Shown: piece by piece, positions 44,894 to 55,336 of the stretch
Layout of the letters: every line of letters starts with the position of its first letter
Numbering within the stretch: position 1 is the stretch's first letter
NCBI RefSeq assembly: GCF_003576245.1
Contig: NZ_QWGA01000003.1
Location: 496,001 to 560,000, forward strand
DNA length: 64,000 nucleotides
Direction of reading: 5' to 3'
Source of the DNA: Henriciella algicola
GTDB lineage: Bacteria > Pseudomonadota > Alphaproteobacteria > Caulobacterales > Hyphomonadaceae
Program-made: the position numbers and the translations under genes
Notes under the pieces: generated by a model
What the model was told of the DNA's origin: nothing
What the model saw: the letters and a program-made list of their open reading frames with translations, nothing else
Database searches by the model: none

Positions 44894-44937
44894 CCCCTTT
44901 CATCGGTGCGATGTGCGGCCTATATTCAACTCGTTCC

Positions 44938-45261
44938 TTCGGGGACTATGGCGATAAACGCGCGTGCAATAAGCGGTTCGGACCCGGGGGCGGTACCCGG
45001 CGCCTCCACCAAATTCCCTTCCTTCAGCGGGACGGCTTTGGGGGCGAAACAGGATCGACGGACGTGTAAAGACGATGCCTTCGCCCGGATGAGCTCCGTT
45101 AGAAGCTCACTCAACAATAGTTGCAAATGACAACTTTGCTGAAGGCGAACTGCTCGCAGCCTAGTCTGCGCTCGGTTTACCGAACTTAACTCCTAGGGCT
45201 TCAGCGCCTTAGGCGGGGCCCGGAGGCGCCTGGCAACAGAAGCCTCCACCTCATCCCCGAA
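44938..45261 (+). ncRNA. ssrA: tmRNA, circularly permuted two-piece gene
   Basis: The acceptor piece comes first, ending CCACCA at 45011 after GGTTCGGACCC and GGTACCCGG segments. A short spacer follows. The coding piece starts at 45040 with GGGGGCGAAACAGGATCGACG, whose first seven bases pair with CGCCTCC at the acceptor 3' end, with a G3-U70 type wobble as in tRNA-Ala. The tag ORF lies inside. Precursor ends pair: TTCGGGGA at 44938-44945 with TCCCCGAA at 45254-45261. This permuted layout is typical of alphaproteobacteria. Exact mature ends are estimates. tmRNA rescues stalled ribosomes. Confidence 0.92.
45123..45164 (+). other. tmRNA tag reading frame
   Basis: The resume codon GCA opens the tag ANDNFAEGELLAA followed by TAG. 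The start ANDNFAE and the small C-terminal LLAA-type end match proteolysis tags recognised by ClpXP. The tag would be delivered with help of the nearby SspB. Confidence 0.93.
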
Positions 45262-52266: not shown

Positions 52267-53676
52267 ATGGGCATCTTTGGCGACAAGCAGCCGAAACCAC
52301 GTACTGAAAGCGACACGATGGGACCTGTCGAAGTCCCGGGCGACAAGTATTGGGGCGCGCAGGCAGAACGCAGCCTCGGCAACTTCAAGATCGGTTGGGA
52401 AAAGCAGCCTGCTCCGATCGTCCGTGCGCTCGGCATCGTGAAGAAGGCCGCCGCCGAAACCAATATGGCACTCGGCAAGCTGGACGAGAAACTGGGCAAG
52501 GCCATCGTTGAGGCCGCCGACGAAGTCATCGAAGGCAAGCTCGATGAGCATTTCCCGCTCGTCGTCTGGCAGACCGGGTCGGGCACCCAGTCCAACATGA
52601 ACGCCAATGAAGTCATCTCGAACCGTGCAATCGAAATCCTCGGCGGAGAGATGGGCTCCAAGTCGCCCGTCCACCCGAACGATCACTGCAATATGTCGCA
52701 GTCCTCGAACGACACCTTCCCGACCGCCATGCACATTGCCTGCGCCGAGGAAGTCACCCACCGCCTCATCCCGGCGCTACAACAGCTTCACAATGCGTTG
52801 AACGACAAGGCAAAGGCCTGGGCCGACATCATCAAGATCGGCCGCACCCACACCCAGGACGCGACCCCGGTCACGCTCGGCCAGGAATTCTCCGGCTACG
52901 CACAGCAGCTCGCCAATGGCATCGAGCGCATCGAGATGACGCTGCCTAAGCTGATGGAGCTTGCGCAGGGCGGCACCGCTGTCGGCACAGGTCTCGCCTC
53001 CCCCAAAGGCTTTGACACAATGGTCGCCGACAAGATCGCACAGATCACCGGCCTCAATTTCCGCACCGCGCCGAACAAGTTCGAAGCGCTCGCGGCCCAT
53101 GACGCAATGGTCTTCACACATGGCGCGATCAGCACGGTCGCCATGTCCTGCTTCAAGATCGCCAATGACATCCGCTTCCTCGGCTCTGGCCCACGCTCCG
53201 GCCTTGGTGAGCTTGCCCTGCCAGAGAATGAGCCGGGCAGCTCCATCATGCCGGGCAAGGTCAACCCGACCCAGTGCGAAGCCCTCACCCAGGTTTGCGC
53301 CCATATCCACGGCAACAATGCTGCCATCGGCTTTGCCGGCAGCCAGGGCCATTTTGAGCTCAACGTCTTCAACCCGATGATGGCCTACAACTTCCTCCAG
53401 TCGGTTCGCCTTCTGGCAGACGCGGCCGTGTCCTTCACCGAGAACTGCGTCGTCGGCATCGAGCCACGCCTCGACAATATCGAGCGCGGCCTGAAAAATT
53501 CACTGATGCTGGTGACCCCGCTCAAGGAAAAGTACGGCTATGACCGCGCCGCGGCGATCGCGAAGAACGCCCACAAGAATGGCACGACGCTCAAGGAAGA
53601 AGCCATCAAGGACGGCATCCCCGAAGACGACTTCGACGCCATCGTCGACCCATCCAAGATGATCTCGCCGGGGTGA
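52267..53676 (+). CDS. fumC: Class II fumarate hydratase
   Basis: A 469-residue TCA-cycle enzyme interconverting fumarate and malate without an iron-sulfur cluster. The motifs are [18 protein letters not shown], the [21 protein letters not shown] block, and the catalytic-loop signature [21 protein letters not shown] lies eight bases before the ATG. Its stop is only 36 nt from the antitoxin start codon. Confidence 0.97.
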
Positions 53677-53686
53677 TTGCTGTTAC

Positions 53687-53733
53687 ACGCCATGTAAGCT
53701 AAGCTACATCGCATGGAGCTTCTTACATGGCGT
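53687..53733. promoter_or_regulatory. Inverted-repeat operator over the antitoxin start
   Basis: Two perfect 12-bp arms, ACGCCATGTAAG at 53687-53698 and CTTACATGGCGT at 53722-53733, flank a 23-nt spacer containing the antitoxin ATG. A further half-site-like CTACAT lies at 53704-53709. This is what an autoregulating antitoxin would bind. Confidence 0.75.
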
Positions 53734-54153
53734 ACTGCAGCGGGACTGACGCAGCGCGAATTGGCCGCTGCAGTCGGCGTGAGCGCAATCCAGATATCCA
53801 GGCTGGAACGACGGTCGAGTTCTCCATCTGTGGAAACAGCGCGGCGGATAGAAGTCGTAACGGAGGGCGAGGTAACGGCCGCCGAACTTCTCGGTATTAA
53901 CGCAGCTGGCGAACGCCGCGGAGTCATGGAGGAGTCGAAGCGTTTCGACTTTGGGGCATCTGACGATGCCCTACTCGAAGAAGCCGCATCATACGGCCTC
54001 GATGCCGGAGAAATCGCGCGTGCAGCTGTAGAGCGCGCTGTAAAAACCGAGCGCATGAAACGCTTCTCGGAAGAAAATCGCGAAGCCATCGAGAGCTGGA
54101 ACGAGCACTACAAGAAGCACGGCCTCTGGAACGAAAAGTACCGGCTTTTCTGA
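53713..54153 (+). CDS. Hybrid antitoxin: XRE helix-turn-helix plus CcdA-like domain
   Basis: A 146-residue protein. Residues 1-62 form an XRE/Cro-type helix-turn-helix (GLTQRELAAAVGVSAIQISRLERR). Residues 75-146 match a full CcdA-like antitoxin, ending ENREAIESWNEHYKKHGL and a terminal KYRLF, as in alphaproteobacterial CcdA. CcdA normally binds DNA through its own ribbon-helix-helix, so this protein may carry two DNA-binding modules. It would neutralise the toxin encoded next and repress the operon. The toxin start overlaps its stop by one base. Confidence 0.85.
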   Translation: MELLTWRTAAGLTQRELAAAVGVSAIQISRLERRSSSPSVETARRIEVVTEGEVTAAELLGINAAGERRGVMEESKRFDFGASDDALLEEAASYGLDAGEIARAAVERAVKTERMKRFSEENREAIESWNEHYKKHGLWNEKYRLF

Positions 54154-54455
54154 TGGATGAACGCTTCGCAGTTCACGAGATCAGTGACGATCCGGAGCAG
54201 TTGATCGTACTTCTCCAATACCCTCGTGTGGACACTGGACCAGCGGTCCTCGTTGCGCCCCTTCTCGCTGACAAAATCCTGCGACCGATCCCACCCGTCA
54301 CGATTGATGTAGTCGTCCGGGATAAGTCTTTCATATTGGCGACACACCAGCTTTCGGCATTTCCAAAGCAGCTCATCGGCAGGCGCGTCGGGTCTCTTAT
54401 CGATCACGAATACGACATTCAGCGGGCCCTCTCCCGGCTCTTCTCGGGCAACTGA
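54153..54455 (+). CDS. CcdB-like toxin
   Basis: A 100-residue protein matching CcdB, which poisons DNA gyrase. Visible features are the early strand MDERFAVHEI, LIVLLQYPR, a VLVAPLLADK strand, LATHQLSAFPKQLIGRRVGSL and the C-terminal AL-x-x-LFSGN, which resembles the gyrase-contacting end of CcdB. Overlap with the antitoxin stop (TGATG) implies coupled translation. Gyrase as target is inferred from the family. Confidence 0.85.
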   Translation: MDERFAVHEISDDPEQLIVLLQYPRVDTGPAVLVAPLLADKILRPIPPVTIDVVVRDKSFILATHQLSAFPKQLIGRRVGSLIDHEYDIQRALSRLFSGN

Positions 54456-54526: not shown

Positions 54527-55336
54527 ATGAGCAATGATTTCAGCAATCTCTTCTCGGTGAAGGGCAAGACAGTGGTCATCACGGGTGGATCGCGCGGCAT
54601 CGGTGAGATGCTTGCGGCGGGCTATCTCGCCAATGGCGCCAAGGTCATCATCTCCTCGCGCAAGGCCGATGCCTGCGAAGAAACTGTAAAGCGCCTGAAA
54701 GACCAGTATGGCGGCGAGATCTACGCCATCCCGTCCGATGTCGGCCAGATGGTCGGCATCCAGCACCTCGCTGACGAGATCGCCAAGCGCGAAGACAAGG
54801 TCGACGTCCTCATCAACAATGCAGGCGTTGCCTGGGGCGCGAAGTTCGAGGACTTTCCAGAGAGCGGCTGGGACAAGGTTATGGACGTGAATGTGAAGGG
54901 CATCTTCTTCCTCACGCAAAAGCTGGCACCGCTTCTGAGAAAGTCCGCCAGCGCCGAAGACCCGGCGCGGGTCATCAACATCGCCTCCATTGATGGCATG
55001 CACACCTCGCCGATGAGCGGCTATGCCTATGGCACGTCCAAAGCTGCCGTCATCCACCTCACCCGCTTCATGGGCGCGGCCCACGCCGGTGAGCATATCC
55101 TCGTCAACGGCATCGCACCTGGCCCATTCCCGACATGGATGCTCTCCACCGGTGTCGGCTATGGCGGTGAGACTGAAGGCGTCGACTGGCAGGCCATTGG
55201 CGACCGTAACCCATCCGGCCGTGTCGGCACGCCGCAGGACATTGCAGGCCTTGCCATGTTCCTCTCCTCACGCGCGGGCGCCTATATCTCAGGTCACACC
55301 ATCCCATGCGACGGCGGCATCGTCTCGTCGAGCTAG
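54527..55336 (+). CDS. Short-chain dehydrogenase/reductase
   Basis: A 269-residue classical SDR. The cofactor loop ITGGSRGIGEMLAAGYL is at about 18-34, the NNAG motif is intact in LINNAGVAWG, and the catalytic YGTSKAA follows ASIDG. A GIAPGPFPT block is present. GGAGG sits upstream of the ATG. The protein resembles acetoacetyl-CoA-reductase and RhlG-like SDRs; the substrate is unknown. It is 72 nt after the toxin gene. Confidence 0.9.
   Translation: MSNDFSNLFSVKGKTVVITGGSRGIGEMLAAGYLANGAKVIISSRKADACEETVKRLKDQYGGEIYAIPSDVGQMVGIQHLADEIAKREDKVDVLINNAGVAWGAKFEDFPESGWDKVMDVNVKGIFFLTQKLAPLLRKSASAEDPARVINIASIDGMHTSPMSGYAYGTSKAAVIHLTRFMGAAHAGEHILVNGIAPGPFPTWMLSTGVGYGGETEGVDWQAIGDRNPSGRVGTPQDIAGLAMFLSSRAGAYISGHTIPCDGGIVSSS

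Follow-up and report, generated by a model that had tools for sequence, protein, structure and literature searches.

The window analysed here, 64,000 nucleotides of Henriciella algicola DNA, carries a toxin-antitoxin pair behind fumC that we consider likely to be a chromosomal ccdAB-type module whose autorepression has passed from the ribbon-helix-helix (RHH) of CcdA to exchangeable helix-turn-helix (HTH) heads. Most likely, a dimer of the head would bind a palindrome that spans the -10 element and the start codon and so shut off the promoter. The CcdA-derived tail is predicted to hold and neutralise a CcdB-family toxin, whose most likely target is DNA gyrase; by analogy with known ccdAB, toxin freed upon loss of the antitoxin would hit gyrase.

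The pair lies on the forward strand between fumC, encoding a class II fumarase (52267..53676), and a gene for an SDR-type oxidoreductase (54527..55336), and the cassette starts 36 nt past the fumC stop. The antitoxin gene comes first (53713..54153, 146 aa) and is followed by the toxin gene (54153..54455, 100 aa). Elsewhere in the window, a tmRNA gene with the tag peptide ANDNFAEGELLAA is located at 44916-45255. The sequence-only reading had placed an XRE helix-turn-helix at the antitoxin N-terminus, and Pfam bears this out: residues 6-48 match HTH_3 (PF01381, E 2.8e-11, 43.7 bits against a cut-off of 23). The HTH_3/XRE head occupies residues 1-60 (53713..53892), and the helices of a structure model put its recognition helix at about residues 25-32 (53785-53808). 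The same reading had called the next frame CcdB-like with one base of overlap. The ORF coordinates agree, and toxin residues 5-99 match CcdB (PF01845, E 2.3e-9, 37.8 bits against a cut-off of 28.6); the protein also matches CcdB chains with solved structures (E 7e-5). It scores under the NCBI CcdB equivalog cut-off (26.4 against 147 bits), which counts against our reading. The antitoxin scores under the HigA (19.1 against 47.7) and HipB (13.1 against 79) family cut-offs, and its partner is a CcdB match. Its closest protein, 95% identical, is from Henriciella marina, and NCBI names such hybrid proteins 'CcdA family antitoxin'. The structure model of the toxin had a mean pLDDT of 48.5 and was discarded.

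The C-terminal half of the antitoxin had been described as a whole CcdA-type domain. A CcdA match was indeed found at residues 85-146 (53965..54150; PF07362, E 2.6e-11), but it covers profile positions 10-71 of 71 and, because the first nine positions are unmatched, the domain is not whole. What remains comprises two helices and a tail that covaries in identity with the toxin and is thus the putative toxin-binding part. Residues 61-84 (53893..53964) form a linker at the place where the RHH strand would be expected. In the structure model of the antitoxin the head was predicted well and residues 61-84 were without structure; the model was set aside as proof of strand loss, since RHH strands pair between chains. 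A fold search with this model gave no match at E <= 0.001, and those listed were mostly HTH proteins aligned on the head.

To place the pair among its relatives, we surveyed the Hyphomonadaceae with one genome per species. A PF07362 match (E 0.001) was found in 30 of 105 genomes, one in each, and these loci comprise 21 hybrids with an N-terminal head and nine short CcdA proteins without one. An order-wide search returned some match in 384 of 398 genomes, and many among the matches listed involve the head alone. Among the matches listed, 13 extend from residue 16 or earlier to residue 132 or later, all in Hyphomonadaceae; weaker ones outside the family cover parts of both halves (for example in G250, G371 and G390). 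A scan of named genomes yielded 23 loci, namely six hybrid and four head-less loci of Hyphomonadaceae and 13 of other groups, the latter read by eye as CcdA without a visible head. The head-less locus L068, labelled Acidobacteria, is on the same contig as G071 and was counted in Hyphomonadaceae. The heads are of several kinds: XRE/HTH_3, a short type with no HTH family above cut-off (P0020, P0023 and P0030), and a third matching HTH_3 (P0031) or LacI (P0037). All eight proteins scanned for head families have a CcdA match. A search of phages returned no relatives. Plasmids gave 10 records, each matching less than 80% of the query; the two whose annotation was read are CcdA genes, 76 and 78 codons long, that have no head.

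CcdA reads DNA with the ribbon strand of its own RHH. At CcdA positions 4, 6 and 8, which face outward and which we take to be the DNA contacts, the alignment places F, F and A in the window antitoxin, and it places D, G and S at the inward positions 5, 7 and 9. The nine head-less relatives have R (eight) or S (one), N or S, and T at 4/6/8, and three hydrophobic residues at 5/7/9. The strand register was taken from the alignment of head-less L006 to CcdA (2adl), which starts at residue 2. With strand anchors that were picked by hand, a strand net charge of +2 and three inward hydrophobics were found in 9/9 head-less antitoxins and R or K at position 4 in 8/9; the corresponding counts among the 21 hybrids were one (L020), eight and five. 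The full strand signature, R or K at position 4 together with three inward hydrophobics, is present in 8/9 head-less antitoxins and in 1/21 hybrids (L022). Similarly, the PF07362 alignment starts at position 1 in all nine head-less loci and at positions 2-12 in the 21 hybrids. Judging from these comparisons, the CcdA half of the window antitoxin seems to have lost its capacity for reading DNA. The proposal that this antitoxin holds two DNA-binding modules is therefore unsupported, as its CcdA half is without the DNA-reading ribbon strand. We name the pair CcdAB-derived, rather than classical CcdA, because the strand signature is absent and profile positions 1-9 are unmatched. L022, in genome G005, is the sole hybrid with an RHH-like strand behind its HTH head, and it has a palindrome with 20-bp arms. 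Since it keeps this strand, the two-module idea could hold in L022.

A perfect 12-bp inverted repeat round the start codon, with its second arm inside the coding region, had also been pointed out and is present (left arm 53687..53698, right arm 53722..53733). Three places in the 64-kb window have perfect repeats with arms of at least 12 and a spacer of at most 40, so the one round the start codon is unusual, not unique. It is found too in the near-twin locus L024, where the operator region is identical. A second perfect inverted repeat, of 10 bp (53734-53743 / 53765-53774), is entirely within the antitoxin gene, and 7 bp of it are kept in L024. We scanned -40..+8 in all 30 loci for perfect palindromic arms of at least 7, which were present in 15/21 hybrids and 0/9 head-less loci (shuffles: mean 0.66, maximum 3/21 in 200 rounds). 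In 14 of these 15 hybrids the compact palindrome is centred between -9 and -19. The window and L024 are among the six hybrids without such arms; the longest window arms in this interval are of 5, and the 12-bp repeat was missed by the scan because its arms reach +20.

An alternative explanation is that the HTH head and an RHH both bind DNA, with the wide 12-bp repeat as a composite operator for two modules. The wide perfect repeat is real and present in L024, and an RHH-like strand survives in L022, alone among the 21 hybrids. However, the window antitoxin is without the strand signature and leaves PF07362 positions 1-9 unmatched, among the top repeats listed only those of L001 and L024 have a right arm entirely within the gene, and the operators of the relatives are mostly the compact palindromes centred at -9 to -19 (14/15). 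We therefore give this explanation little credence. For a head that binds alone as a dimer, the candidate compact operator in the window is ATGTAAGCTAAGCTACAT (53692..53709), with the arms ATGTA/TACAT. This site was chosen on its half-sites by position, not by rank. It is favoured because it covers the -10 element, is centred at -12.5 like the relatives' operators and has no second copy in the genome when up to 3 mismatches are allowed. Competing sites arise from the half-sites themselves (ATGTA at 53692, TACAT at 53705 and 53724), and a 5-bp palindrome centred at -23, the one listed for the window in the palindrome scan, rivals 53692-53709. Arms of only 5, with a competitor, count against our reading; this is its weakest part, and the exact operator is uncertain. 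Given 53692-53709 as operator, the arm inside the gene, which holds the half-site TACAT at 53724-53728, would be an accessory half-site.

The candidate operator overlaps a putative promoter. A -35-like hexamer, TTGCTG (53677..53682, + strand), is followed 17 nt behind by a -10-like hexamer, TAAGCT (53700..53705, + strand). Both are weak: the hexamers score 5.3, and a stricter promoter scan listed none for the window, which is a further point against our reading. Their position, however, is common to the relatives. Within -70..+14, the best-scoring site is a sigma-70-like pair with a -10 that begins 12-13 nt ahead of the ATG in 19/21 hybrids (all except L018 and L025) and in 0/9 head-less loci, the start codons of the latter having been picked by eye; the best promoter of head-less L009 is at -14, near the hybrid position. 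With assumed promoter weights, the mean score at the hybrid position was 7.41, compared with -0.39 for 300 base shuffles (sd 0.67, maximum 1.86). The -10-like hexamer of the window places the transcription start at about the ATG. A -10 starting 12-13 nt before the ATG suggests that the antitoxin mRNA is probably leaderless and is translated as such. Since a leaderless mRNA has no ribosome-binding site to spoil, operator DNA could enter the gene.

To examine which part of the antitoxin the operator follows, we compared 20 hybrid loci over -29..-1, an interval free of fumC sequence, with L024 dropped. Recognition-helix identity correlated with shared operator 6-mers (Mantel r 0.69, p 0.0002), in a test where locus pairs are not independent, kinship is ignored and the recognition-helix strings were picked by eye. 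The same comparison gave r 0.15 (p 0.07) for toxin identity, r 0.18 (p 0.04) for the CcdA body and r 0.12 (p 0.09) for the tail. Without the six short-head loci, the values were r 0.44 (p 0.0002) for the helix and r 0.07 (p 0.23) for the toxin. At least two operator 6-mers were shared by 17/18 pairs with a helix identity of at least 75%, compared to 28/172 other pairs; 15 of these 18 pairs fall within the short head type. Likewise, at least two were shared by 10/10 pairs with similar helices and toxins less than 50% identical (9/10 within the short head type), compared to 2/22 pairs with toxins at least 60% identical but different helices. Tail identity, in turn, correlated with toxin identity (r 0.89, p 0.0005), and head identity gave r 0.12 (p 0.08) against the toxin. 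Single pairs of loci illustrate both relationships. The toxins of L012 and L022 are 96% identical and their heads and operators differ, whereas L012 and L030 have head type and operator in common and toxins 30% identical; L014 and L021 share the XRE helix and an operator half-site, with toxins 46% identical. At the DNA level, G008 and G007 are 93% identical in fumC, 89% in the CcdA body, 97% in ccdB and 93% in the SDR gene, compared to 59% in the head and 23% in the operator, the last being a noisy measure, as operators of different heads reach 70 (G000, G013). Pairwise identity of the XRE heads is 0.10-0.17 at the DNA-facing residues 25, 26, 27 and 30, and that of the tail is 0.73 (21 rows). 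Collectively, heads and tails look as if they have been swapped independently among related bacteria at the same chromosomal spot.

These data also bear on whether the inverted repeat works as RNA, as a fumC terminator or a start-codon hairpin, instead of as an operator. The repeat is situated between fumC and the antitoxin gene, and an empty site in G014 has a terminator-like hairpin and a T run here, none being listed in the fumC-antitoxin gap of the window. Against this, the palindrome changes in step with the recognition helix from locus to locus, and a leaderless start would put most of the repeat outside the ccd transcript. We regard a role as RNA as very improbable.

The chromosomal spot is the 3' side of fumC. 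The hybrid starts 35-105 nt past fumC in 18/21 loci and 793-961 nt past it in the remaining three; 4/9 head-less loci are 32-1008 nt past fumC, and the other five are not within the stretch examined. Within Henriciella the cassette is behind fumC in 11 of 28 genomes (29 in the genus, G024 being left out; one of the two G012 fumC copies is cut off). The empty site of G014 has a FumC that is 99% identical and an SDR gene that starts 143 nt past the fumC stop, with the terminator-like hairpin between them. An attachment-site search of 25 loci revealed a clear second fumC 3' end only in L015 (83% over 90 nt), the others giving at most 36 nt. In this genome, G094, the degenerate fumC 3' copy (L015 194-283 and 1102-1190; also L224) directly precedes the cassette and follows a further open frame; DNA that entered at the fumC 3' end may have left this trace. 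In L041 (G027) and L042 (G029) a different gene is found between fumC and the SDR gene, with open frames of 153 and 119 aa that are alike.

The toxin C-terminus was compared with F-plasmid CcdB, which ends in W99, G100 and I101. W99 aligns to S98 of the window toxin, which ends G-N; the replacement of W99 by S counts against our reading. The host GyrA has Q at the residue aligned to E. coli R462. In the available text of PMC10886550, GyrA R462C protects E. coli from F-CcdB, and in that of PMC5086665 the CcdB of V. fischeri binds gyrase without the Trp99 rearrangement and with different contacts. Among the 30 ccd-bearing Hyphomonadaceae genomes, GyrA 462 and the last toxin residue agree in 29/29 with both, in three toxin-end classes that were drawn after the match was seen: P with I (8), Q with N, T or V (17), and R with F or Y (4). 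The hybrid L013 is in a P462 host and its toxin ends in I. As a control for shared ancestry, we scored 200 GyrA columns (90 variable); 462 ranked first (normalised mutual information 1.00), followed by 460 (0.92), 464 (0.72) and 379 (0.69), although patch types still partly follow clades. In 46 sequences, GyrA 450-467 is invariant except at 457, 460, 462 and 464. The 460/462/464 patch is A-Q-S (28), D/E-R-H (10) or N-P-H (8), and these types are found in ccd-free genomes too; in Henriciella, Q462 is present in 11/11 hybrid hosts and in 11/17 genomes without ccd. A docking role for 460 and 464 may be considered from their nearness to 462 rather than from a structure. In 28 genomes outside the family, 27 of them with GyrA, the match of toxin end to GyrA 462 did not hold up as a universal code. 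There, 18 R462 hosts have 15 F/Y ends, two V and one (G408) not read to its true end, and nine T462 hosts have seven F ends and two V. F-plasmid CcdB, which ends in I, is a further exception opposite E. coli R462. The covariation within the family supports gyrase as the target and is a lead for an arms race, not proof.

The same evidence bears on whether the pair is a relic, with a CcdB homologue that has ceased to poison gyrase and with regulation as its sole remaining role. The available part of PMC7905540 argues for a regulator-only role of a truncated CcdAB-like pair of Photorhabdus, which was not toxic. The replacement of W99 points the same way, as does the Q at 462 of the host GyrA, given the protection that R462C affords E. 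coli (PMC10886550). However, the window toxin is full length and kept beside a matching tail, its end tracks GyrA 462, and the V. fischeri protein can bind gyrase without the Trp99 rearrangement (PMC5086665). We consider a relic unlikely, and favour a working toxin held by the CcdA-derived tail.

The pair resembles ccdAB of the F plasmid and of chromosomes (PF07362/PF01845; 2adl, 2h3a, 2h3c) in toxin family, toxin-binding half, gene order and overlap. In contrast to ccdAB, it adds an HTH head, loses the RHH strand signature, and has a compact candidate palindrome over a leaderless-type promoter and another toxin C-terminus. In paaR2-paaA2-parE2, as described in the text available for PMC8630535, a separate regulator represses and paaR2 mRNA was shown to be leaderless and translated as such; that system has three genes and a ParE toxin, whereas in the window pair the DNA-binding part belongs to the antitoxin polypeptide itself. 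HicB antitoxins, as far as PMC2701414 is available, likewise combine one neutralising domain with alternative DNA-binding domains, RHH or XRE-type HTH, in toxin and antitoxin families unrelated to those of the window pair. PMC10440598 proposes that TA permutations could arise when neutralising and DNA-binding parts are fused or exchanged, so that exchangeable antitoxin parts are, as a general idea, already in print there and in PMC2701414. That case is network-level and engineered; here natural variants and their operators are found at one chromosomal site. In the open-licence literature searched, neither an HTH-headed CcdA nor a fumC-adjacent ccd site came up, which is weak evidence of absence.

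More tentatively, it is possible that the Hyphomonadaceae ccd behind fumC exchanges two modules, head with operator and tail with toxin, and that the toxin C-terminus is matched to GyrA 460/462/464 in an arms race. If so, exchange of head and operator would let a newcomer escape the repression exerted by the resident, and natural sequences would show a chromosomal toxin and gyrase engaged in such a race. The loci form a natural series in which antitoxin DNA specificity, operator, toxin and target vary separably, mostly at one site. With such a series it becomes testable how the repressor type of a type II antitoxin can change with autoregulation kept, what drives TA modules to diversify operators, and whether host gyrases are shaped by chromosomal CcdB toxins.
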